Under the pieces are notes generated by a model, which was not told the origin of the DNA, ran no database searches, and worked only from the letters and a program-made list of their open reading frames with translations. Source: Promethearchaeota archaeon (GTDB lineage Archaea; Asgardarchaeota; Lokiarchaeia; Sigyniarchaeales; SOKP01). From it: a stretch of 40,347 bases of DNA. Numbering within the stretch: position 1 is the stretch's first letter; each line of letters starts with the position of its first letter. The stretch is from the NCBI GenBank assembly GCA_020344955.1, contig CP070831.1:1-40347 (forward strand), read 5' to 3'. Positions 8,003 through 36,934 of the stretch are shown here, piece by piece. The position numbers and the translations under genes were made by a program.

Positions 8003-9808
8003 ATGAATGAAGAGGAAAATAAAATAATTAGAGCTCCGATTGTTTGCATTCTTGGTCATATAGACCATGGAAAAACCACGATCCTAGATTATATTAGAGG
8101 TACTGTAGTCCAACAAAGAGAAGCTGCAGGAATTACTCAACATATTGGTGCTTCTTATTTTCCAACTGAAGATATAAGAGAATTTTTAAGAAAATCAAAA
8201 CAAGAATTTGCAGAAAAGGAAATAAAACTTCCAGGAATCTTAGTTGTAGACACACCAGGTCATGCGGCGTTTTTAAATCTGCGGAGAAGAGGAGGTGCAG
8301 TAGCAGATATTGCTATTTTAGTTATAGATGTTACAGCTGGAACGATGCCTATAACTTGGGAGTCTGTTCGGATTTTGCGTGAGAGAAAAACACCATTTGT
8401 TATTGCCGCCAACAAAATAGATAGAATTTCTGGATGGAAATCAATAAAGGATGCAGATTTCCTCGATTCATATCATTCTCAAAAACCACATGTTAAAGAA
8501 TTCTTAGATGAAAAGATTCTAGGGATTATAGGAAATTTTCTAGAAGAAGGCTTCAAAGGAATTGATCGGTATGATAAAATAAAAGATTTCACTAAAAAAA
8601 TTGCTATTGTGCCTACAAGTGGTAAAACAGGGGAAGGAATTTCTACGCTTTTAATGATTTTAATGGGATTAGTACAACAGTATTTAACACCAAATCTAAA
8701 ATTTTCCGAGGGTGCCGCTAAAGGAGTTGTTTTGGAAGTCAAAAAGGAGAAAGGTCAAGGAAAAACAATGGATGTGCTTATATATGATGGTCTTATTAAT
8801 AAAGGTGATGATTTTATTGTTGGAGGTCTTGAAAAACCTATTAAATCTAAAGTGAGGGCTCTATTAACTCCAAAACCATTAGATGAAATTAGAGATCCAA
8901 GACAAAAATTCGATTCTGTTGAAGTTATAAGTGCTGCTGCTGGGATCAAAATTTTAGCACCTAATATTGATGATGTTGTAGCAGGATCTCCATTTAGAGG
9001 TATTGCCGATCCTTCTGAAGAAGAGTCTTTATATAAAGAAATAGAATCTGAAGTAGAAAGTATTAGGATTAAAACTGATAAAGCTGGTGTAGTTTTAAAA
9101 GCTGATACTCTAGGTTCACTAGAAGCCTTGGAAAACCACTTCACTAAAAATGGAGTGAAAATCAGTGTTGCTGATGTAGGACCAATAAAAAAGGAAGATA
9201 TTATTAACGCAAATATAGTTAGGCAATTAGATCCATATTCTGCAGCGGTTTTAGGTTTTAATGTTCCAATATTACCAGAAGCTAACGAGCAAGCTATTAA
9301 TGATAACATTAGAATTTTCATAAATAATGTTATTTATCGATTATTAGAAGATTATATTGAATATGCTGAAACAAGAAAAGCAGAGGATACAGCTAAAGGG
9401 TTAAGTGAGCTTGTTTTGCCAGCAAAAATAAAAATGCTTCCAGATTTTATATTTAGAAATTCAGATCCTGCCGTTTTTGGCGTTCAAATTGAAGCAGGGA
9501 TTTTATATCCGAAAGTACCATTAATAACTGACACTGGCAAGAGAGTTAGGAGAGTCCACCAGATTCAAGACAAGGGTCAAACTCTTGAAAAAGCACGTAA
9601 AGATTCAGAAGTAGCAATATCAATCCGTGGTATTGAAATTGGCCGAGATATAGAAAAAGACGAAACACTATATGTTAATATCCCAGAATCGCATGTTAGA
9701 CAATTAATGGGTAAATTTATTGACGAATTAACCATAGATCAAAAGGAAGCTTTAAGAGAATTTATCACAATAATGCGAAAAACAACACACCCATGGTGGG
9801 GAATGTAA
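8003..9808 (+). CDS. infB: Archaeal translation initiation factor aIF5B
   Basis: This GTPase is the archaeal/eukaryotic homologue of bacterial IF2 and promotes subunit joining with initiator tRNA in the P site. The protein has 601 residues, the normal archaeal length, with no intein. GTPase motifs are G1 GHIDHGKTT (residues 18-26), G3 DTPGHAAF and G4 NKID, followed by domain II (KGVVLEVKKEKGQG), domain III (VVLKADTLGSLEAL, typical of the family) and domain IV. It starts at ATG 8003. It is followed in the same direction by the CCA-adding enzyme gene after 108 bases. That gap holds a plausible separate promoter, so the two need not form one operon. Confidence 0.98.
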   Translation: MNEEENKIIRAPIVCILGHIDHGKTTILDYIRGTVVQQREAAGITQHIGASYFPTEDIREFLRKSKQEFAEKEIKLPGILVVDTPGHAAFLNLRRRGGAVADIAILVIDVTAGTMPITWESVRILRERKTPFVIAANKIDRISGWKSIKDADFLDSYHSQKPHVKEFLDEKILGIIGNFLEEGFKGIDRYDKIKDFTKKIAIVPTSGKTGEGISTLLMILMGLVQQYLTPNLKFSEGAAKGVVLEVKKEKGQGKTMDVLIYDGLINKGDDFIVGGLEKPIKSKVRALLTPKPLDEIRDPRQKFDSVEVISAAAGIKILAPNIDDVVAGSPFRGIADPSEEESLYKEIESEVESIRIKTDKAGVVLKADTLGSLEALENHFTKNGVKISVADVGPIKKEDIINANIVRQLDPYSAAVLGFNVPILPEANEQAINDNIRIFINNVIYRLLEDYIEYAETRKAEDTAKGLSELVLPAKIKMLPDFIFRNSDPAVFGVQIEAGILYPKVPLITDTGKRVRRVHQIQDKGQTLEKARKDSEVAISIRGIEIGRDIEKDETLYVNIPESHVRQLMGKFIDELTIDQKEALREFITIMRKTTHPWWGM

Positions 9809-9845
9809 ATTATAAATCAAAACGGGAATAATATACAGAATTATT

Positions 9846-15191: not shown

Positions 15192-15764
15192 TCATGAGAA
15201 ACTTGAGATCTTAGCAATCATATATAGTTTTTTGACAAGTGCTTTAAAAGCATCAGTTACTCCTTGACCTGTTAATGCACTAGTTTTGTAATAGCCAATG
15301 AATCTATTTTCTTTCACAAATTTATCAACTATTGCATCAGAAGTCGGTATATTTGGATTTGATGCTAATTCTCCATCGTCAACTAAATCAACTTTATTTC
15401 CAAATAAAACTATAGGTATATTTCCACAATGTTTCTTAAGATCATCAAGCCATCTTAAAACATGATTATAACTATCAATTTGTTCTGGAGCATGAGAAAA
15501 GACTATGATAGCTCCACTACTTCCAATATAAAATCTTTGGCGTAATGCTTGAAATGAATCCTGACCTGCTATATCCCAAAGAAACAATCTAACCTTCTCT
15601 CCATCAATTATTTCTTCATAATTGGAGAATTGCGTTCCTAATGTCGAGATATACTCCTTCTGAAAAGATCCTTGAGTATATTTTTTAATTAAAGATGTTT
15701 TCCCAACCGCTCCATCTCCAATTACGCAAATTTTGAATCCATATCCTTTTTCATCGTTGCTCAT
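15192..15764 (-). CDS. Rab/Ras-like small GTPase
   Basis: The 190-residue protein is a single G domain. Motifs are P-loop GDGAVGKT (residues 16-23), switch I YISTLGTQF with the Mg-binding Thr41 (compare the Rab effector loop YISTIGVDF), switch II WDIAGQ (63-68, catalytic Gln kept), G4 GNKVDL and G5 TSAL. There is no C-terminal cysteine, so the prenylation used by eukaryotic Rabs is not possible; membrane binding, if any, must use another route. It is a tandem paralogue of the gene at 15953-16507, sharing long stretches around SSGAI and CGNIPI. The start is ATG at 15764. The 188-base gap to its paralogue is AT-rich without an ORF and could hold its own promoter. Small GTPases of this type are greatly expanded in Asgard genomes. 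Confidence 0.95.
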   Translation of the reverse strand: MSNDEKGYGFKICVIGDGAVGKTSLIKKYTQGSFQKEYISTLGTQFSNYEEIIDGEKVRLFLWDIAGQDSFQALRQRFYIGSSGAIIVFSHAPEQIDSYNHVLRWLDDLKKHCGNIPIVLFGNKVDLVDDGELASNPNIPTSDAIVDKFVKENRFIGYYKTSALTGQGVTDAFKALVKKLYMIAKISSFS

Positions 15765-15952: not shown

Positions 15953-16507
15953 TTAAAATGTAGCTCGATGGTATAATTTTTTAACCAGTGTTTGAAAACC
16001 TTCTTTAACACCTTGACCTGTTAATGCACTTGTTCTGAAATATTCACTAATATTATGATCTTGAGCAAATTTCTGTACATGAACATCAGAAGTTTCATAA
16101 TCAGGACTAGTTGAAATTGCATTTTGATCGACTAAATCAGCTTTATTTCCAAACAATATGATGGGAATATTTCCGCACGCATCTTTTACATGCGATAACC
16201 ATTTAATAATATTACGATAAGTTTCAATTTCTTCAGGAGCGAGAGAGAATACAACAATAGCACCACTACTTCCTTTGTAAAATCTATCACGTAATGTAGC
16301 AAATGATTCTTGACCTGCTAAATCCCATAAGAATAACTCAACCATTATACCACTTAATGTTTCTTCATATCTTGAAAATTGCATTCCTAAAGTAGAAATA
16401 TAATCCTTTTCAAACGTATTGGTTGTATATCTTTTTATTAAAGAAGTTTTACCAACAGCAGCATCCCCTACAACAACTATTTTAAATCCAAAAGCTTTAT
16501 CACTCAT
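15953..16507 (-). CDS. Rab/Ras-like small GTPase, tandem paralogue
   Basis: The 184-residue single G-domain protein has P-loop GDAAVGKT (14-21), switch I YISTLGMQF with Thr39, WDLAGQ (61-66), G4 GNKADL and G5 TSAL. It is clearly related to the neighbour at 15192-15764 over its whole length, so the pair arose by tandem duplication. As in the neighbour, the loop before G5 is longer than in Ras and the C-terminus (YHRATF) lacks cysteine. The gene lies downstream of a HAD phosphatase gene on the same strand with 123 bases between, a gap that carries a perfect 22-base palindrome. The cellular process it switches is unknown. Confidence 0.95.
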   Translation of the reverse strand: MSDKAFGFKIVVVGDAAVGKTSLIKRYTTNTFEKDYISTLGMQFSRYEETLSGIMVELFLWDLAGQESFATLRDRFYKGSSGAIVVFSLAPEEIETYRNIIKWLSHVKDACGNIPIILFGNKADLVDQNAISTSPDYETSDVHVQKFAQDHNISEYFRTSALTGQGVKEGFQTLVKKLYHRATF

Positions 16508-18361: not shown

Positions 18362-18994
18362 ATGAGCCAAAAACCATCATTATTGATTATAGGAAATTCA
18401 AACGTAGGGAAATCTTCAATAACTAAATTATTGATGCCAAATCCTAGAAGTTTTAAAGGGAAAATAGGCAAAACTCCAGGTAGTACATTATTGATAAAAT
18501 CAATTTCCCAAGAAAATTTACCTTATAATATAGTTGATCTTCCTGGATTTGGATATGTTAGTCAATCAAGCCGAAGACGAGCAGAACATATAAAAAAACA
18601 AATCGTTATTCATATTGAAAAGCATTATGAAGATTACTTTTTTGGATTAGTCGTAATCAATATTCTAAGAATAGAAGATGAGCTGAAAAAATATTTTATT
18701 AAAAATAAGAGAACTATTCCTTTAAGCTTTGAATTGATTCAATTTCTAGGGGAATTTCAGATTCCTCTCCTTATAATTTTAAATAAAATCGACAAAGTCT
18801 CTAATTTTGATAAAAATAAGATTATCTCTTTATTTGTCAACTCAGCAAAAGAATATGGGTTGAATCTAATTCATTTAGATGATTTTATTTTGAGTGAACA
18901 ATCTAAATTACCATATTTAGAATTTTCGGTATTAAAAAAACAAAATCTACAAAAATTAAATGGTATTATAAGAAAATATTTGAAGAAAGTGTAG
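18362..18994 (+). CDS. EngB/YihA-like GTP-binding protein
   Basis: The 210-residue TRAFAC-class GTPase has P-loop GNSNVGKSS (residues 11-19), the EngB-type switch I GKTPGST (36-42), G3 DLPGFGYV (59-66) and G4 NKID (141-144). In bacteria EngB (YsxC) helps assemble the large ribosomal subunit; archaeal members are less understood. The region between G3 and G4 contains an insertion (about residues 100-130) beyond the compact bacterial form. It lies 24 bases after the acidic repeat protein gene, probably in one transcript, and ends 5 bases before the convergent Taw1 gene. The family call is firm; a role in ribosome assembly is inferred. Confidence 0.88.
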   Translation: MSQKPSLLIIGNSNVGKSSITKLLMPNPRSFKGKIGKTPGSTLLIKSISQENLPYNIVDLPGFGYVSQSSRRRAEHIKKQIVIHIEKHYEDYFFGLVVINILRIEDELKKYFIKNKRTIPLSFELIQFLGEFQIPLLIILNKIDKVSNFDKNKIISLFVNSAKEYGLNLIHLDDFILSEQSKLPYLEFSVLKKQNLQKLNGIIRKYLKKV

Positions 18995-24605: not shown

Positions 24606-25667
24606 TCAGTAATATTCTTCTTCAACTGAAATCTTATCAGATTCTTCTTTTAACAATCTCAACTCTTTCTTATGACCTAAATATACCAATATAAAAAATA
24701 TAGTGAAATAAATTGTTAAGATTAACAATGTAAAAAAGTAATATTTATATGTAAATGACATATAGTGCAAAGCAGTTCCGATAATAAATCCAGTAAACAA
24801 TCTAGACTCTGTCGTACTTGTTCTTAATAAAAGTCTTTGGGTTCCCCAGTCAATTATCCCTGGTAAAGGTAATATTATACATAGGATTAAAGCAAGTTCT
24901 GCATTAAATTCAACTTGGTAAATTTTTTGGATTAAGTAAGTTGAAAACAAAGCAACTAACCCTCCAATAATTACACCTGAACATCTTGAGCAAAAATAAA
25001 TTTTCGTGCGACCAAATTTAAGATAAAAAGTGTGATCACTCGCAGAAAGGGGATGGTGGGTCAGGATCATATAATATAAATGCTTTTTATCTTTAGCTAG
25101 GATTTTATCGTATATAAACAATAGGGCAGGAATTGTAATCAAAATTGAGATACTTGCTTGAAGTAAATATTTTAATCCAAAAATGAAAATAATCTCAGTG
25201 GAAAATTGATCAAGATATAACAGATATTCTATACCAATTATAAGACCTGAAATTATAAACGAAATTATGATTAGGGTTATAAATGTGTACAAGACTCTGG
25301 TAAGATCATGATATTTAAGAGGGTGATATTTATAGATACCAGTTAATAATCCTAAAATAGCGATAATAAAACACCATTCAAGGTAAAGAATCTCATAGAA
25401 AGCTAACTGAAAAAGGAATTCTCCTAGAAATCCTGATATAAATCCTTGTAAAGGACCTGCTAATATAGAGAAAAATGTGAAAATTAGAAGAGTTATACCA
25501 AATTGCATTGAAAACTCTTGAGAAACTATAAAAATCGTAGAAATTGAACCAAAAGGTTCAGAAATATATACGTATGATATGACAATAAATGCAATGATAA
25601 GTAAATTAAGAAAAACACGTCTTATAAAATTGTATCGCGCTTCTTCTTGAGTAGAATCAGTCACCAT
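24606..25667 (-). CDS. DUF2085 membrane protein
   Basis: The 353-residue polytopic membrane protein has about nine hydrophobic segments. The N-terminal half (about 15-190) contains five or six helices with a Gly/Pro-rich LAGPLQGFISGFLGEFLFQ stretch, which resembles substrate-binding components of small transporters. The C-terminal half carries the DUF2085 pattern: HHP at 204-206, FCSRCSG with two Cys (226, 229), and DWGTQ at 273-277 within paired helices. The conserved His/Cys set on the membrane face suggests metal binding, but the function of DUF2085 is unknown to me. The gene belongs to a minus-strand cluster, 51 bases after the first QCx3HxNY-family gene and 12 bases before the hydrolase gene. 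Confidence 0.8.
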   Translation of the reverse strand: MVTDSTQEEARYNFIRRVFLNLLIIAFIVISYVYISEPFGSISTIFIVSQEFSMQFGITLLIFTFFSILAGPLQGFISGFLGEFLFQLAFYEILYLEWCFIIAILGLLTGIYKYHPLKYHDLTRVLYTFITLIIISFIISGLIIGIEYLLYLDQFSTEIIFIFGLKYLLQASISILITIPALLFIYDKILAKDKKHLYYMILTHHPLSASDHTFYLKFGRTKIYFCSRCSGVIIGGLVALFSTYLIQKIYQVEFNAELALILCIILPLPGIIDWGTQRLLLRTSTTESRLFTGFIIGTALHYMSFTYKYYFFTLLILTIYFTIFFILVYLGHKKELRLLKEESDKISVEEEYY

Positions 25668-25718: not shown

Positions 25719-26378
25719 TTAATTAAAAATTTCATCAAGCTCTTCAATTAATTTTTCTTTTGTCATTTCAAAGCCCATTCTTAGAACCTTCAGAATTATA
25801 TTTCTTCCTAAAGGTACTTTTAATATATTCTCATCACTTTCCACAATAGAAATTCCTTCATCATTATAATCAAGTTGACGCTTTAACGCCTGATACGCCT
25901 TCTCTTTTGAACTAAATGCTGCTCTAGATAATTCATTATAATCTTTTACATCCTCATTTACATTTAGAAAAAGGATACTTTCTTCTACTTGAGTAATAAA
26001 ACATTTTTTAGTTACTTCCTCTAACCTTTTATAGTTGTGGTGTTTTTCTTTACACTGGATATATGTTTGGTCGTTTTTTAAGTATGTAGGGAAGTTTCTA
26101 TTAATAATTTTATTGAAATTATCTTTCGAACCATCTCCATTTTGGATAAACTCTTTCGCAGAATCAAGGGTAACTCTTATTTGTTCTAGTGTTCCCACTT
26201 TTGCATCTTTATCAGACCAGTACTTATAAAACGATTTGACTATTGGTTTAATAACAAAATTTAGAGAACCAGCATCCACTTCTGTGTCTATAAGATCTCT
26301 ACCATAATTAAGACTGGTCTCCATTTGTTCAATCATCCGTTTCTCTAAGATTTTATAATTTTGCTCAATGTATTGCAT
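25719..26378 (-). CDS. Unrecognised helical protein, paralogue A of a tandem pair
   Basis: I do not recognise this 219-residue protein. It has no signal peptide or membrane segment and looks mostly alpha-helical. It is plainly related end to end to the gene at 26489-27169. Shared blocks are MIEQME.S...GR.LIDTE near the N-terminus, a central FVIKPIVKSFYKYW (41-54), DQT..QC (103-109) followed by H113 and NY (115-116), and a C-terminal hydrophobic-charged segment P.GR.I..K.LR.GFE.TK. The Cys and His of QC-x3-H-x-NY are kept in both copies, so they may bind a metal or serve in catalysis. It starts at ATG 26378, 110 bases after its paralogue, and the DUF2085 gene follows after 51 bases. Confidence 0.7.
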   Translation of the reverse strand: MQYIEQNYKILEKRMIEQMETSLNYGRDLIDTEVDAGSLNFVIKPIVKSFYKYWSDKDAKVGTLEQIRVTLDSAKEFIQNGDGSKDNFNKIINRNFPTYLKNDQTYIQCKEKHHNYKRLEEVTKKCFITQVEESILFLNVNEDVKDYNELSRAAFSSKEKAYQALKRQLDYNDEGISIVESDENILKVPLGRNIILKVLRMGFEMTKEKLIEELDEIFN

Positions 26379-26488: not shown

Positions 26489-27169
26489 TTATTTCTCATT
26501 ATATGTATCATTAAGTGCTTCAATAAACTCTTTTTTAGTTAATTCAAAACCTCGTCTAAGTGCTTTTACTATAATTTTTCTCCCCATCGGAATTTTTAAT
26601 ATACCAATGTCCTCTTCAACTATTTTGATCCCCTCATCTGTAAATTCTAATTGTTTCATCAAATTTTCCTTCGCTACTTCTTTCAAAGGAAAGGTTATTC
26701 GACATAAGTCTCCATAATTCTCTGCTTCTCCTTTTATTTCTAAAAATTTCACTACTTGTTTTAAATAATTTTTAAATGTTTCTTTAGCCACTTGACTCAT
26801 TCTTACATAATTTCTATGACTTGGTGAGCATTGTCGAGATGTTTGATCTGCTTCAAGGTATTTTGGAAAATTTTCTTCGATTATCTTATTATAACTCTCT
26901 TCAGTTTTACCATTAAGCAATAATTGCTTACCTGCATCCAATGTAATTTTAATTTGTCTTAATGTTCCAGATCTAGCATCATTTCTTGACCAATAATCAT
27001 AGAAAGTTTTAACAATTGGTTTAATAATGAAGGTTAAAAGGCCGGTATCTAATTCAGTATCAATTAGTTCCCTTCCTAATTCAATGGATCTTTCCATTTG
27101 CTCAATCATTCGTTCTTTTATAAGATGATAATTTCTCTCTAAGTAATTCAATGCTTGATCTCCGGTCAT
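26489..27169 (-). CDS. Unrecognised helical protein, paralogue B of a tandem pair
   Basis: The 226-residue protein (from ATG 27169) is a tandem paralogue of the gene at 25719-26378. A longer frame from TTG 27202 adds 11 residues with no match in the paralogue and is rejected. Shared features are MIEQMERS, LIDTELDTG, FIIKPIVKTFYDYW (47-60), and QC (113-114) with H118 and NY (120-121). The C-terminal IPMGRKIIVKALRRGFELTK aligns with its partner. No domain family comes to mind. The gene is divergent from the giant pseudo-GTPase/solenoid gene across 176 bases, so they may share a control region. Confidence 0.7.
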   Translation of the reverse strand: MTGDQALNYLERNYHLIKERMIEQMERSIELGRELIDTELDTGLLTFIIKPIVKTFYDYWSRNDARSGTLRQIKITLDAGKQLLLNGKTEESYNKIIEENFPKYLEADQTSRQCSPSHRNYVRMSQVAKETFKNYLKQVVKFLEIKGEAENYGDLCRITFPLKEVAKENLMKQLEFTDEGIKIVEEDIGILKIPMGRKIIVKALRRGFELTKKEFIEALNDTYNEK

Positions 27170-27280
27170 TTTTAAAACAAAAATATTTAATCTCAAACTC
27201 AATTAATAAATATAAAAAGAATTCTATTCTTTTAAAATAATTTCATAAGTTTTATACTATTAATGTAATGTAAAATAATC

Positions 27281-27345: not shown

Positions 27346-30300
27346 ATGTCAATATTTTACTTCAGAACTTTAATTCTTGGTTCGGATCCTGATTCTATTC
27401 ACTTTTATATTTCAAGAGCTTTTGGAGAACCGGGAGAAGATAAAGAAACATATGTTTCATGGTATAAGGAAGTAAAGGTTCTAGATAATGTCTGTGATTT
27501 AGAAATTGATGCCCTAATAAGTGTTTCTGCAGATTTAGATAAAATAATTCCAATGGTTGACGGAATTATATATTTTTTAAATCCAGTGGTTCAAGAGGAA
27601 TCAGAACTTTTTGAAATGATTCTTCCAGATATTTTTTCTGTAAAGAGAGATATCCCAACAATAGTTGTATTTTATGATCAGGATGGAATTCTTCCTATCT
27701 CTGTTAATGAATTATTAACTCATATATGGGTTAATTTTCCTAGTCTTGAAGCATTTGTGAATCTCCCTCCTAAAGATTTTCATCAAGCTCTTCAAGCTTT
27801 GTGTTTAGCTATCATTAATGGAGATACTCCCTTAAATATTGAAAACGCTTGGATGAGATTTCCAATATTTATTCAAATGGCAAATATATATTTTAATAAC
27901 CAAAATTATTATTACGCTGCTCAAGCTATTAGGAAAACCGCCCAAATTGCTGATATATACAATAAAGAAGAATTTTATATAATTAGTGAACAAGCAGCAT
28001 ACTTGTATTCTAAAATGAGTTTATATCTAGAAGCAAGTAAAATTTTAGAAAAAGTAGATATAAAGAAATCAGCAAATTTCAAGAAATTATATGCTGAGGC
28101 GATGGTGAGAGAAGCGAATCTTTATTTCAAACGGAATGAATATGAAAAGGCAGCTAAAACCTATGAAACAGCAGCTCAATGGTCAAGTATAGAATTATTA
28201 GACAAAACATTAATAAATGAAGCATTTAGCTTATCAATAAATTCGTGGATTTCAGCCTGCAGAGTAGAAGATGCATTTAGAATTCTTCAAAGTTTACCAC
28301 ATCAAGAAGTTATAGTCATTTTAAAAGAAATTTCAAATAAAATCGGAGCAGCAGCAGAATATTTGGTTAGTATCAATAATTTCGAACTAGCAAGAGAACA
28401 GCTTTATAGAGCTGTCAATAGATATCAATTGGAAGATCTTTTTGATGAATTAAAAGATTTGACTAACAAACTAACTGAAGTTCTAATTAAACTTTTTAAA
28501 AAACAGATAAAGGAGCAAAAAAAACATGCTGCCAAAAATACTTATGATGAACTCGAAAATATGTGGAGTTCATATAATGTAAAAAAACCAGATTTAGATC
28601 CAACTTTAGAAGAATTAATTAATCAGTTTTTTGGAAGCAATAATTTTGAGATAGCCACTATTTTAATTGATAAATTAAATTCAAGTATTCTAAAAAAACA
28701 ATTGGCAAAAGTTAGAGATGAGCTTGAAGATAAATTTAGAGTACAAAAAAAGAAAGAAATCGAGGATTATATCAACAAGGGAATCCAAATTATAAAAGAA
28801 TTCACTGAAGCTGAACAAAATATAATTATTGAAATGAATTCTCAAAAAATAAATGAAGCAAATGAATACGTTAAACAAAATAGTTATATTACTGCTGCAA
28901 ATCTCTTGAAAAAACAAGCAAAATTTCTCAAAAGTATCGGTAAAGACGAAATAAAGGAACAAATTCTTACAAGATCTTTAGAGGTATTATTGGAGGGTTT
29001 AGAATTTGAAAATTTCTTCCTTATTTTCAATCAACTCTCAAGTGATATGAAAAAAAAATATTTAACTAGAATTTTTCCTAAATTTCTTCAAAAATTACGT
29101 GAAATTAGAAAATCAGAGGATTATGAAAGAATTTTTAAAATTTTTGAGAGTTCAATTAGAATCTACCGAGATCAAATGCTTTATGATCAATCGAAGGAAA
29201 TTAGCTTAGTTTTCATAAAAGTTATTAAAGCTAATGCTTTGAAAATTTTAGAAGGTGAAGATAATCTCCTCCCTGCAGTTAATAAGGCAGAATTATTAAT
29301 CAAAAAAGTTCTAAATATTGCCTCAGCATATTTAGATAAAGAAGAAAATATTAGAATCACATTTAACAAAATCTATAAAAGAATTACAGAAATTTACATT
29401 GAATTAGATAACTTGCATCTAGCTCATGTTTATAATGATAAAATTGAAAAAGCTGTTTATAAAATAGAACTCCATAAAAAAATAGAGCTTCTCGAAGCTA
29501 AAAAAAGCGAGATTCGATCAAAAAAAGCTAAAAAGATTCGTAAAGGAGAAGAATTAAAGGAAAAAGACTCAATTATAGAGAAACGAGCACAAGAAGCGAG
29601 ATTAGATAGAGAAAATGATATGAAAGAAAGAAAAGGATTAAAAAGGGGATATTTTAAAGACGGTTTGAGTAATTTGAAAAGCCAACAATATAATGAAGCA
29701 CTTGAAATCTATAAAAATTCTATAAATCGATTGAATATAACTAAGAAGTATAAATTAGCAGGAGTTTCTTTAGCAATTGCTTGCCTAATACTCATGAAAC
29801 AAAATAAATTTGAAGATGCAATGAATTTATTAACTGAAACGAAAAAGAAATTATCTGGATATGGTAAATTATTTTCTGAAGCATTTGCGGTTACATTAAT
29901 CGAATACGTTATTGATTTGATGACTTTTCAAGATGAAGAAAAATACAAAGAATCACTACATTTTTTTGAAATACTACCATTATTTGAAGAAGAATTATTA
30001 TTATTATATGATCTCATGGGTAAAGAATATCAAATAGAAGGACAACGTGGAAGAACTGTCGAGATGTTCACAAAACTAAAAGAAATTCAGAGAGACATTA
30101 AAAATTTAGCAGAATATATTGAAAAAGAAACACATTCTGTGAAACAACGGGAAGTAATTAAAAACCAATATTGGAGATTAATATTAGATGATATTTCTAA
30201 CGGCAAAATGTTAAGCGCATCAACTGGTTATTTTGAGTCAATTTCAAAGCTTAAAAAGGAAGGGTACATTAAACCAGCAGCAACTAGTTTGATCTTAGGT

Positions 30301-31086
30301 TCTATGATCCTTATTAAAGAAGAAGGTGTTAAAACTGCTGAAGAAGAGTTTCGGAACCATTTAAATCAAAATAAATCAGATTTAAATAATCTTCCAGAAA
30401 TCAAGATCATGAAGTATCTTTTCCCTGCAATAAAAAATGACGAGAAAATTGTTATTAATCTGATTGTTGATTTATTTATCGAGAGATTAGTTTTATTTGA
30501 ACCGGAAATTCAAATTTTAAGAAATATTGCTGGAGAAGACATATCAGAAGAAGATCAAATTAAGGAAATGCTTACACGAGAAGAATTTGGAGAATATACT
30601 AAATTTCAAGTAGAAATTGATCAACGATATGGTAAATTACAAGCTAAAGCAGTAGATGCTAGAAGAGATAATGAAACAATGATTAAAAAGAGAAAACCAA
30701 TGAGAAAAAGATATTATACACCAATAATAGAATTACTAGAATCAAAGAATTTTAAGGGAGCTGCAGATAAGTATTTACAATTAGCATATAGTTTCTCTAA
30801 AAGAAAAGATCTCGAATCTAGCTCCTTAATGGTAATTTTGCACGGATTAAGTCTTTTAAAGGCAAATGAATCCTTAAAGCAAATTAAAAATAATGTTAAT
30901 ATGTATTTGAAAAGTTTAGGGGTTAATAAGAAACTTGTAGAAGAGACATTTTATATTATGTTATTTATGTTTTTGATTGATGTAATCTTATATAATTTTG
31001 ATCAGTATTTACCTAAAATAAAAGAAAGCTTGGAAATACTTCCATTATTCGAAGAAGAAGAGATTTTAATCGATATTAGAGAATGA
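27346..31086 (+). CDS. Giant helical-repeat (TPR/SNAP-like) protein with an N-terminal pseudo-GTPase-like domain
   Basis: The 1246-residue protein matches no family I can name with confidence. Residues 1-160 look like a small-GTPase fold without nucleotide motifs: strand LILGSDPDSIH sits where a P-loop would be but lacks GK[ST], VDGIIYFLN (71-79) resembles the strand before the base-binding loop, and IPTIVVFYDQDG replaces NKxD. Residues about 170-700 are helical hairpins of TPR/alpha-SNAP character (for example ANLYFKRNEYEKAAKTYETA). Residues 700-765 are a very charged, likely coiled-coil segment. Residues 766-1246 hold three related modules beginning near 766, 939 and 1120; the first and third each carry ILPLFEEE about 110 residues in. 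There is no membrane segment. The architecture suggests a scaffold or regulator of a GTPase or coat-like system, which is inferred. Confidence 0.75.
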   Translation: MSIFYFRTLILGSDPDSIHFYISRAFGEPGEDKETYVSWYKEVKVLDNVCDLEIDALISVSADLDKIIPMVDGIIYFLNPVVQEESELFEMILPDIFSVKRDIPTIVVFYDQDGILPISVNELLTHIWVNFPSLEAFVNLPPKDFHQALQALCLAIINGDTPLNIENAWMRFPIFIQMANIYFNNQNYYYAAQAIRKTAQIADIYNKEEFYIISEQAAYLYSKMSLYLEASKILEKVDIKKSANFKKLYAEAMVREANLYFKRNEYEKAAKTYETAAQWSSIELLDKTLINEAFSLSINSWISACRVEDAFRILQSLPHQEVIVILKEISNKIGAAAEYLVSINNFELAREQLYRAVNRYQLEDLFDELKDLTNKLTEVLIKLFKKQIKEQKKHAAKNTYDELENMWSSYNVKKPDLDPTLEELINQFFGSNNFEIATILIDKLNSSILKKQLAKVRDELEDKFRVQKKKEIEDYINKGIQIIKEFTEAEQNIIIEMNSQKINEANEYVKQNSYITAANLLKKQAKFLKSIGKDEIKEQILTRSLEVLLEGLEFENFFLIFNQLSSDMKKKYLTRIFPKFLQKLREIRKSEDYERIFKIFESSIRIYRDQMLYDQSKEISLVFIKVIKANALKILEGEDNLLPAVNKAELLIKKVLNIASAYLDKEENIRITFNKIYKRITEIYIELDNLHLAHVYNDKIEKAVYKIELHKKIELLEAKKSEIRSKKAKKIRKGEELKEKDSIIEKRAQEARLDRENDMKERKGLKRGYFKDGLSNLKSQQYNEALEIYKNSINRLNITKKYKLAGVSLAIACLILMKQNKFEDAMNLLTETKKKLSGYGKLFSEAFAVTLIEYVIDLMTFQDEEKYKESLHFFEILPLFEEELLLLYDLMGKEYQIEGQRGRTVEMFTKLKEIQRDIKNLAEYIEKETHSVKQREVIKNQYWRLILDDISNGKMLSASTGYFESISKLKKEGYIKPAATSLILGSMILIKEEGVKTAEEEFRNHLNQNKSDLNNLPEIKIMKYLFPAIKNDEKIVINLIVDLFIERLVLFEPEIQILRNIAGEDISEEDQIKEMLTREEFGEYTKFQVEIDQRYGKLQAKAVDARRDNETMIKKRKPMRKRYYTPIIELLESKNFKGAADKYLQLAYSFSKRKDLESSSLMVILHGLSLLKANESLKQIKNNVNMYLKSLGVNKKLVEETFYIMLFMFLIDVILYNFDQYLPKIKESLEILPLFEEEEILIDIRE

Positions 31087-32217: not shown

Positions 32218-33450
32218 ATGTCTACTGAAGACTTAATAAAGGTCGTCTCTAAATTTTTAGACCCTAAATCTGCTAAAGTTAGGAAATTAAAAGAAATAGA
32301 TGATGTTCTAAAACTTCATCTTGATTCATATAAATTTATTGATAAGGAAGAATCTACAATAATGAAACAACTTTTAGATATCTCAACTATTGAAGATGCT
32401 TCCAAGTTAAATAAAGATAATCCCTTCGAGAGTATAACTCTAATAGAAGAAACCGACGATTCCATAGAATTAGCAATAGATTTACAAAAAAAATTAGGAG
32501 AACTAAAAGAGAAATATCCTACTCTCGAAACAAAATTAAAAAAAACAGCAACAATCAGTTCACTTATAGCAAGTATTAAAGAAGAAAAAGATGGAATTGA
32601 ATTAAAAGGTCAGAAAGTACTTTGTGCAGGATTGGACGATGCAGGCAAAACTTCATTGTTATCCAAGTTTGGAGGACGCTTAGGAATTGGTGATATGATA
32701 TCAACACATCCAACGAAAGGAGTAGTCCGAATGAAATTTGGGAGTACAAATTTGAATTTGTTTATTTGGGATCTTGGGGGTCAACAAGAGTATCGAGAAA
32801 GATATTTAAACAATCCAGAGCAATATTTCGTCCAATTAGACCTGTTAATGTTTGTGATTGATGTTCAGGATCCTGATAGATATGAAGAATCTCTCCAATA
32901 CTTTAGTAAAATTTTAGATTCCATAATTATACTGGAGGAAACACCCTACATATTAGTTTTTCTCCATAAATATGATCCGGATTTGAAGAACGACCCTAAA
33001 ATCCTCTTAAACATTGAACTTATAAAAGATAGTATGAGTGAAATGTTAAAAAGCAAAAAAATTGAATTTGATGTTGAAATATACTTGACATCGATTTATT
33101 CTCTTATTTCCCGGGAACCACAATTTGCCAAATATGTTAAAAATTTAATGAGTGCGACTCACTCTTTAACTGATCCAACTATTAGAAAAGTAGAGGGATT
33201 AGGGAAAACTTTAGAAGAAACCCTGAATGCTGTAATTCGATTATCAGAAAGTATTTCTACACAACTTAATGATCTTGATAACCGACTCCGAGCTATAGAA
33301 TCAGGAGCATTTCAAGTTGCCCAAAGTGGAATACCTATTGAAATTGCCAATCCCAATCAACCCTCCTCAAGACCTCAAGAAAATGCTAGATTAAATGTTC
33401 TCAATGAGTTAAAAGATTTATTTAGCAAAAGGCGGAGGTTAGATCTTTAA
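32218..33450 (+). CDS. Arf/Rag-like GTPase with N- and C-terminal helical extensions
   Basis: The 410-residue protein has a G domain at about 130-310 flanked by helical arms. Motifs are P-loop GLDDAGKTS (138-146; Arf has GLDAAGKT), switch II WDLGGQ (184-189; Arf WDVGGQ, Gln kept) and a G4-like FLHKYDPD (248-255), where HKYD stands in for NKxD much as in Rag/Gtr GTPases. The N-terminal 125 residues are charged and helical. Residues about 330-370 (LNAVIRLSESISTQLNDLDN) look like a coiled coil, which suggests dimerisation. It has no N-terminal glycine or cysteine tail for lipid attachment. It is divergent from tfb and overlaps the convergent PAP2 gene by 4 bases. Asgard genomes encode many Arf/Rag-like GTPases; the target of this one is unknown. 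Confidence 0.9.
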   Translation: MSTEDLIKVVSKFLDPKSAKVRKLKEIDDVLKLHLDSYKFIDKEESTIMKQLLDISTIEDASKLNKDNPFESITLIEETDDSIELAIDLQKKLGELKEKYPTLETKLKKTATISSLIASIKEEKDGIELKGQKVLCAGLDDAGKTSLLSKFGGRLGIGDMISTHPTKGVVRMKFGSTNLNLFIWDLGGQQEYRERYLNNPEQYFVQLDLLMFVIDVQDPDRYEESLQYFSKILDSIIILEETPYILVFLHKYDPDLKNDPKILLNIELIKDSMSEMLKSKKIEFDVEIYLTSIYSLISREPQFAKYVKNLMSATHSLTDPTIRKVEGLGKTLEETLNAVIRLSESISTQLNDLDNRLRAIESGAFQVAQSGIPIEIANPNQPSSRPQENARLNVLNELKDLFSKRRRLDL

Positions 33451-35044: not shown

Positions 35045-36934
35045 TCAACTAATTGAATCTTCTTTATCAAAAAATACTCTGTAGAACAATTCTTTTTCTC
35101 CAATTTCTGGTGGAGTTATCTTTGTATAACCTCCTTTATGAATAACACGGATTGTTTCTTTATTTTGAATGTGAATATTTCCATAGAATCCTTTTATACC
35201 CTTCTCCTTAGCAATAATAATTATATGTTGATAAAGATATGTACCAATACCCTTTCCTCGATAATCTTCTCGAACTAAAAAACTATATTCTGCCATATTC
35301 ATTTGAGGATTTAAATAATATGTTGCACTCCCTACCATTTCTTCTTTACCAATTTCTCCAATAAAAGCACCTAGTGAAAAAACGTTATGATAATCAATAT
35401 TTACTTCGCTTTGAGTTTTAGAATGTGTGAATTCTTTTCTGAGCTCAAAGAATCGTAAATATCTATCTCTTTCATTTAATGAGTAATATAACTCTTTAAG
35501 TGCTTGTTCATCCGTAGTTTTAACAGGTCGAATTCTAATTTTTTCGTTTTCTCTTGTAGTATAAATTGTTTCATATTCTGAAGGATATAAGCAAATACGG
35601 CCATCTTCATCACAGGGAAGCATTTGATCAGAAAATATATAATTCAACTTTTTAGCTTCGTCTAATAAAGATTGTCGGAATTTTGGATGAGCAATACATA
35701 TCAACTCAAGCACTCTTTCACGAATAGTCTTACCATGAATGTATGCTACACCCCATTCTGTTACCACATAATGAACATCTCCACGGGACAACATAATCCC
35801 TGCTCCTTCATCTAAATGCGCTACAATTCTGGATTTTTCTCCATCTCTAGATGTTGAAGGGAGTATTATAATAGGCTTTCCTCCCTTAGAAAATGCTGCA
35901 CCTCTCATAAAATCTATTGTTTCTCCTAATCCTGAATAAAAACTATAACCTTCTGTTGCAGCATTTACTTGTCCGGTTAAATCAATTTGTCTAGCAGAAT
36001 TGATCGAGACCATTTTCTTATTCATTCCAATGTATCTAGGATTACAGATATAGTCTGATGGAAAAAACTCAATATAGGGATTGTTGTCTACAAAATCATA
36101 CAATTTTTTTGTTCCAAGAGCAAAACTCGTAAGAATTTTTTCAGGATGAAAATTCTTTTTTCTACATGTTAACGCTCCCCCTTCAATAAGAGGTATTATA
36201 TTGTCTGTAATATAATGAGAATGCATTCCTAAATCTTTCTTATCTTTTAAAAATCTAATAACTGCATTTGGTAAATCACCAAAACCCACATGAATAGTAG
36301 ATTTATTTTCTATTAAATTTACTAGATTTTTACCAATCCGTTCAGCAATTTCATCAGGTTCATCAAAAATAAATTCTAATAATGGAGTATCATTATAGAC
36401 AAAAAAATCAATTTCTTTCATGTGGATAAAACTATTTCCCAAAGTCCGTGGCATTTGTGGGTTAATTTCAACAATAGAGATATAAGAGGATTGAGCTATT
36501 GGCTTTGCAATATCCACATTAATCCCTAAAGAACAAAAACCATAAGGATCAGGGGGAGTAGCTTGAATTAGCGCGACATCGACATGTTTCCGGCCTGTAA
36601 GAAATAAAGATGGAATTTCACTCGTAAATATAGGTGTATAATCTGCTTGTCCTTTATTAATCTCCTCTCTAAGAGTTTTGCCAATAGAAAAAGCGTTATG
36701 CCTAAATAGGTCTTCTGCTTTATCCTTAAAATATTTTTCTGGACCTATAGTTAAAAAGTGGAGTATTTCAGTATCAATTAATTTATCTGAGTGCTTGATC
36801 AATTCCGATGTTAATAATTGTGGTTCTGAACATCCAGAATCAATAAAAACTCTATTCCCAGGAATGATTTTATTAATTGCCTCTTCGGCGGATATTTCCT
36901 TATCTTTCCACTTTTCTCTCCAATCTTCGGTCAT
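35045..36934 (-). CDS. Acetyl-CoA hydrolase/CoA-transferase fused to a GNAT acetyltransferase
   Basis: The 629-residue protein has two parts. Residues 1 to about 455 are a family I CoA-transferase/acetyl-CoA hydrolase of the 4-hydroxybutyrate CoA-transferase type, with IDLTGQVNAATEG (317-329), GLGETIDFMRGAAFSKGGKP (335-353) and SRGDVHYVVTEWGVAYIHGK. Residues about 465-629 are a GNAT domain: RIRPVKTTDE start and the acetyl-CoA loop REDYRGKGIG (555-564). The residue just before IDLTGQV is Gln316, where I expect a catalytic Glu in many relatives (from memory, not checked). The gene is divergent from the acetyl-CoA synthetase gene across 260 bases. The fused GNAT domain could sense or use the acetyl-CoA made nearby and may modify proteins such as Acs, which is inferred. 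Confidence 0.92.
   Translation of the reverse strand: MTEDWREKWKDKEISAEEAINKIIPGNRVFIDSGCSEPQLLTSELIKHSDKLIDTEILHFLTIGPEKYFKDKAEDLFRHNAFSIGKTLREEINKGQADYTPIFTSEIPSLFLTGRKHVDVALIQATPPDPYGFCSLGINVDIAKPIAQSSYISIVEINPQMPRTLGNSFIHMKEIDFFVYNDTPLLEFIFDEPDEIAERIGKNLVNLIENKSTIHVGFGDLPNAVIRFLKDKKDLGMHSHYITDNIIPLIEGGALTCRKKNFHPEKILTSFALGTKKLYDFVDNNPYIEFFPSDYICNPRYIGMNKKMVSINSARQIDLTGQVNAATEGYSFYSGLGETIDFMRGAAFSKGGKPIIILPSTSRDGEKSRIVAHLDEGAGIMLSRGDVHYVVTEWGVAYIHGKTIRERVLELICIAHPKFRQSLLDEAKKLNYIFSDQMLPCDEDGRICLYPSEYETIYTTRENEKIRIRPVKTTDEQALKELYYSLNERDRYLRFFELRKEFTHSKTQSEVNIDYHNVFSLGAFIGEIGKEEMVGSATYYLNPQMNMAEYSFLVREDYRGKGIGTYLYQHIIIIAKEKGIKGFYGNIHIQNKETIRVIHKGGYTKITPPEIGEKELFYRVFFDKEDSIS

Follow-up and report, generated by a model that had tools for sequence, protein, structure and literature searches.

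The pseudoGTPases described in the accessible parts of three sources are eukaryotic examples, including an Entamoeba protein, together with a bacterial CheY receiver fold (PMC10211241, PMC5593906, PMC4359372). The nearest precedent for the protein described here is CENP-M, which, according to excerpts of the original report, adopts a small-GTPase fold near Rab without binding GTP and forms a permanent structural unit with the modelled alpha-solenoid CENP-I in the human kinetochore HIKM complex (PMC4080450). Similarly, extracts of two of these sources describe p190RhoGAP pG1 and pG2 and the fungal dynein light intermediate chain, GTPase folds whose G motifs have degraded and which sit within larger proteins that act as scaffolds or adaptors (PMC5593906, PMC4359372). 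Here, we describe a gene for a giant protein of 1,246 residues from a Promethearchaeota archaeon (Lokiarchaeia, Sigyniarchaeales, SOKP01), located on a stretch of 40,347 nucleotides referred to below as the window (assembly GCA_020344955.1, contig CP070831.1, positions 1 to 40,347 of the forward strand; Table 1). We consider it likely, at a probability of roughly 60%, that this single chain, with a Rab/Ras-like head and a TPR-like solenoid, is a permanent assembly platform in which the head has a fixed role, structural or in binding a partner, and does not act as a GTP switch. Within this explanation the GTPase and helical folds are predicted, and the motif loss, the kinship to Ras profiles, the purifying selection and the kinship among modules are computed from sequence. 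The titles and abstract starts listed from an open-licence literature collection describe no archaeal pseudoGTPase and no pseudoGTPase with a TPR solenoid, which is not proof of absence.

The AlphaFold2 model of the head, built on a 38-row alignment, has the order b1-a1-b2-b3-a2-b4-a3-b5-a4-b6-a5 with a b2-b3 hairpin (mean predicted local distance difference test, pLDDT, 89.6; predicted template modelling score, pTM, 0.87). This predicted strand order is that of small GTPases, and comparison of the model with known structures (Foldseek, VIA-align) returned Ras/Rab-type entries. An antiparallel b2-b3 hairpin is a topological argument against a CheY/receiver fold, which was rejected for the head on these grounds. 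Motifs were counted in 113 full-length sequences, comprising the giant protein (P0001) and 112 homologues (7 of 120 listed sequences were left out for length). The P-loop pattern [GA]xxxxGK[ST] within residues 1–60 and the [NT]KxD pattern in the G4 area were each found in 0/113 of these sequences and 0/38 aligned heads, while DxxG close to switch II occurred in 3/113. The head therefore has neither GxxxxGK[ST] (P-loop) nor NKxD, the two hallmarks by which an active small GTPase of the Ras/Rab type is recognised. In contrast, 18 of 19 Ras domains picked by their P-loop from the same genome retain NKxD. The sequence-only reading, which had proposed that residues 1 to about 160 are small-GTPase-like without GK[ST] and NKxD and had named a structure prediction lacking that fold as grounds for refutation, thus stands for the modelled residues 1–158. 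Profile comparison matched the head to Ras-family GTPases, with a probability of 94.6% for the window GTPase at 15192–15764 and four relatives; this gene and 15953–16507 encode active GTPases of the Ras/Rab type, which have profile kinship and fold in common with the head.

Despite the lost motifs, the domain has been retained and is under purifying selection. The ratio of nonsynonymous to synonymous substitution (dN/dS, simple Nei-Gojobori) in the head was 0.04–0.14 across seven hand-picked close pairs and fell below that of the solenoid in six of them (an eighth pair was unusable as one member lacks the head). The description of the head as 'decayed' in the sequence-only reading was therefore abandoned, and 'repurposed' is preferable because the domain is maintained. 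A decay or pseudogene reading of the whole gene was rejected on the same low dN/dS and on a frame that remains uninterrupted in almost all relatives (the exception noted is a single internal stop in G073). Order-wide conservation, expressed as mean BLOSUM over 17 diverse members, was highest in strand 4 (4.56), the head–solenoid linker (3.07), strand 1 (2.95), strand 5 (2.34) and helix 4 (2.04), intermediate in the switch-II-like stretch (1.54) and helix 5 (1.56), and lowest in the P-loop/helix 1 region (0.37), the switch-I-like stretch (0.64), the G4-like stretch (0.88) and helix 3 (0.93). The linker thereby ranks among the best-conserved stretches of the protein.

Residues 157–1246 were modelled as entirely helical (mean pLDDT 84.5, pTM 0.36), with long predicted helices, candidates for the proposed coiled coil, at 447–510, 728–764 and 1078–1132, although the low pTM means that the overall shape of this body is not fixed. 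Residues 250–278 score as TPR at 21.5 bits, below the Pfam cut-off of 27, and TPR_2 was matched at E 0.01 or better by 6 of 22 family members. The SNAP profile (PF14938) scored 14.2 bits, below its cut-off of 25, for residues 749–1246 alone and did not appear at E 5 when the whole protein was scanned. Of the earlier proposal of a TPR/alpha-SNAP-like solenoid, the long helical body is thus upheld as a prediction, but both family scores fall short of their cut-offs. Stacked helical hairpins are a predicted feature in common with the TPR solenoids of SKI, Paf1/Ctr9 and IFT-A chains and with alpha/gamma-SNAP; the body has no significant sequence match to them, only one stretch near the TPR profile, and pieced alignments. 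The body profile reached a best E of 0.29 against the PDB, and the whole sequence gave one PDB match, judged to be chance.

The C-terminal part consists of three related modules (M1–M3), as had been proposed from sequence with a lack of internal similarity as the refuting outcome. One-against-one hhalign comparisons gave E-values of 1.5e-19 (M1/M3), 1.1e-15 (M1/M2) and 3.9e-10 (M2/M3), whereas modules against controls (three solenoid pieces and the head) reached only 0.028 or worse at a probability of 1.8% or less, and chance similarity was rejected. The landmark motifs also fall where they had been placed: ILPLFEEE lies 110 residues past KRGYF in M1 and past KRYY in M3, and LFEPE 111 residues past KNQYW in M2. 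Module M2 is missing in 14 of 39 orthologues, giving two- and three-module forms. This repeated change of one module, in orthologues whose synteny is otherwise intact, supplies natural variants for relating structure to function. Neither head nor modules matched a named family in Pfam and NCBIfam, nor did the head alone match Pfam, in keeping with the statement that no named family has this layout.

If the protein is a permanent platform, the head would not bind GTP and could not switch. It may instead pack on its own solenoid via the conserved linker and the side bearing W128, E135, L152 and I157, acting as a clamp or docking piece while the solenoid and modules carry partners. The modules would be docking units whose number can vary without loss of function and sets the count of docking sites, and the assembly may operate close to the membrane, together with the small proteins and the membrane protein that are encoded divergently upstream and described below. 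Like CENP-M/CENP-I, the giant protein would combine a non-switching GTPase fold with an alpha-solenoid. However, in the available portion of its report that system has two chains and an importin-like modelled solenoid, while the lokiarchaeal protein is a single archaeal chain with a predicted TPR-like solenoid and repeated C-terminal modules; the resemblance is one of design and no descent is claimed. The p190RhoGAP and dynein domains sit in other host proteins with other partners, and the excerpts of those reports describe no fused TPR-like solenoid of the kind predicted here. Asgard archaea are the archaeal group closest to eukaryotic cells and have genomes rich in small GTPases, and the assignment of a pseudoGTPase on a long helical scaffold to such a host in the sequence-only reading agrees with the origin of the window; the roles suggested there, an assembly platform for small GTPases or a coat-like complex, are conjectural. 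More tentatively, in Lokiarchaea a Rab-like switch, now joined to a giant helical scaffold, may have taken on a structural role instead; the protein would then be a single-chain archaeal counterpart of eukaryotic pseudoGTPase–solenoid assemblies, organising a membrane-linked complex and tuning its reach with two or three docking modules. If so, Ras/Rab-type pseudoGTPases would be no eukaryotic speciality, and the protein would be a concrete, expressible object for finding what lokiarchaeal GTPase folds bind.

The gene runs from ATG to stop, faces an opposite strand riddled with stops, is the only match to the protein in its own 3.34 Mb genome and normally occurs once per genome. In the genome survey it is confined to one order: a family profile matched 71 of 227 phylum genomes, all within the window's order (71/79, fragments counted), and none of the 148 genomes outside it. 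Six of the eight order genomes without a match are 58–84% complete, and the others are G034 (92%) and G071 (91%). Named relatives comprise 37 loci titled Lokiarchaeota, Lokiarchaeia or Prometheoarchaeum sp., and Lokiarch_03720 of Lokiarchaeum sp. GC14_75 (P0088). Strict confinement is called into question by source names: 15 of 120 listed homologues are labelled Thor-, Odin-, Hermod- or Hodarchaeota at up to 85% identity, and a second listing adds three with other-lineage names, one of them Heimdallarchaeota. These 18 homologues (P0014 and P0050 among them) conflict with the survey, but because identity is so high their names probably reflect loosely named bins.

Synteny was compared across 40 fetched loci in addition to the window, belonging to families f1 (28 loci, the window's own family), f2 (7), f3 (1) and f4 (4). 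Within 6 kb upstream, the small-protein family and the DUF2085 membrane protein were divergently arranged in 28/28, 4/7 and 1/1 loci of f1, f2 and f3 (two of the three f2 misses have <600 bases of contig and the third 3.1 kb), and a winged-helix gene lay on the opposite strand in 31/40 loci (f1 25/28, f2 5/7, f3 1/1, f4 0/4). The genes found around the giant gene in three families therefore encode a membrane protein, a winged-helix protein and the small proteins, while TFIIB and a Rag/Gtr-like gene downstream were neighbours in f1 only. The small-protein family, with members of about 220 residues and no match in Pfam or the PDB, has a broader distribution than the giant gene, occurring in 76 of 225 phylum genomes including other orders of the class, so synteny hints at a shared process and not at an obligate complex; the latter was rejected, as the family is also present where the giant gene is absent, in individual genomes and in whole orders, and outlasts its clean loss.

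Several observations weigh against the proposed platform. The match between head and Ras profiles spans residues 3–110 only, the probability for the window GTPase at 15953–16507 was only 36%, no profile match was obtained with those at 32218–33450 and 18362–18994, and the best PDB match of the head profile (septin CDC10, a GTPase, residues 69–131 only) was not significant at E 0.35. With a body pTM of 0.36, packing of head on solenoid is not visible in the model, and covariation between the head and the first solenoid half (49 of the top 300 pairs versus 18.7 expected, effective depth 109) fits such packing as a hint only, as it is confounded by phylogeny. In f4, the small-protein family and membrane protein were unlinked from the giant gene (0/4 loci, two with <4 kb of upstream contig). 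Finally, G034 has cleanly lost the gene (L151, G034:C1:177000-196900, 9712–9834), leaving TFIIB and a small-protein gene 121 bases apart with the other upstream neighbours kept; in this genome, which belongs to the same family as the window, the genes for TFIIB, for one of the small proteins and for the membrane protein remain side by side, so the platform is dispensable there and its neighbours work without it. This natural deletion also provides a comparison for function.

It is unlikely that the protein is instead a decoy or allosteric regulator, whose GTPase-mimicking head would hold or activate the guanine nucleotide exchange factors and GTPase-activating proteins (roadblock, longin) of the genome's small GTPases. 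In its favour, the Ras family profile PF00071 is matched 79 times in the genome, excerpts of PMC10211241 describe pseudoGTPases such as Rnd as binding a GTPase-activating protein, and in the 113 closer sequences residues 26–75, the switch-like region, are conserved to the same degree as the remaining head; across the order, however, conservation is lowest in the P-loop and switch-I-like stretches and middling in the switch-II-like stretch, and no GTPase regulator was recognised in the neighbourhood common to three families. A coat or tether subunit, whose solenoid would polymerise on membranes in the manner of COPI, HOPS or SNAP-type adaptors and shape protrusions or vesicles, is distinctly improbable. 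Fold comparisons of the body did return generic TPR solenoids and pieced SNAP alignments, but residues 157–1246 of the model contain no beta strand and hence no beta-propeller to accompany the alpha-solenoid as in coat subunits; CENP-I, COPI and HOPS were not among the best 50 rows of either comparison, which excludes nothing. A scaffold for transcription or RNA processing, comparable to CTR9, SKI or TFIIIC, is very doubtful: SKI complex, IFT-A and Paf1/Ctr9 entries led the Foldseek list, TFIIIC appeared in the second comparison, and the TFIIB gene adjoins with the winged-helix gene upstream, but those structures are long TPR solenoids matched at TMq of about 0.1 and root-mean-square deviation of at least 20 A, and TFIIB is a neighbour in f1 only. 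Least probable is that the head retains nucleotide or small-ligand binding through an altered site, like class-ii or atypical GTPases. A new signature, YD..GI.P, at the G4 place in the closer relatives (D111 in 110/113, G114 and P117 in 113/113) speaks for this reading, but the stretch is weakly conserved order-wide and the phosphate-binding loop pattern is gone.

Table 1 Features of the giant gene and its divergent neighbours in the window.
Feature	Coordinates	Strand	Basis
Whole gene, 1,246 aa plus stop	27346..31086	+	Open reading frame; single own-genome match
Residues 1-158, pseudo-GTPase head with a predicted Rab/Ras-like fold, P-loop and NKxD absent	27346..27819	+	AlphaFold2 model, Foldseek, VIA-align, motif census, profile match
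Residues 159-180, head–solenoid linker, PLNIENAWMRFP at 162	27820..27885	+	Sequence conservation
Residues 181-727, predicted TPR-like alpha-solenoid including 64-residue helix 447-510	27886..29526	+	AlphaFold2 model, sub-cut-off TPR profile 250-278, Foldseek
Residues 728-764, predicted long helix running into module M1	29527..29637	+	AlphaFold2 model
Module M1, residues 745-902, KRGYF at 766, ILPLFEEE at 876	29578..30051	+	hhalign
Module M2, residues 918-1075, KNQYW at 939, LFEPE at 1050	30097..30570	+	hhalign
Module M3, residues 1090-1246, KRYY at 1121, ILPLFEEE at 1231	30613..31083	+	hhalign
237-aa protein, unknown fold, without Pfam match at 0.001; paralogue of 25719-26378	26489..27202	-	Synteny, alignment, distribution
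219-aa paralogue of 26489-27202	25719..26378	-	Synteny, alignment, distribution
Hydrophobic, likely membrane protein, DUF2085 and ECF S-component-like stretch (below its cut-off)	24606..25667	-	Pfam, hydropathy, synteny

Further observations concern individual genomes and neighbours. G008, counted among the 71 matching genomes, carries a single fragment (L152, G008:C1, 8119–8526; residues 344–479 at 71% identity), with no other part of the giant protein within the 16 kb fetched, and this is apparently a remnant of the gene. The start of 26489–27202 was probably called too early, because close relatives start about 17 residues later, and two genomes from another order of the class carry five to six copies of the small-protein family. 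The neighbour family A5 gave a best PDB E of 0.67 and only scattered weak Pfam matches. Several of the PF00071 matches lie in open frames of 500–690 residues, and the genome may therefore encode further GTPase fusions. The product of the window gene 32218–33450 is a Gtr1/Rag/Arf-like GTPase whose P-loop is intact and which has about 130 additional residues at its N-terminus; the gene is syntenic with the giant gene in most f1 loci. In f2, one genome encodes a ubiquitin-conjugating-enzyme-like protein two genes from the giant gene (L034:5373-5882, minus strand; PF00179, E 1.8e-25), and in two others the genes directly downstream (L035:3584-5911 and L036:5083-6969, both minus strand) have in common an N-terminus that looks gelsolin-like; one stretch of the L036 product matches a histidine-rich repeat profile. 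Elsewhere in the window, a 629-aa open reading frame (35045–36934) fuses an acetyl-CoA hydrolase/transferase to a GNAT acetyltransferase domain.
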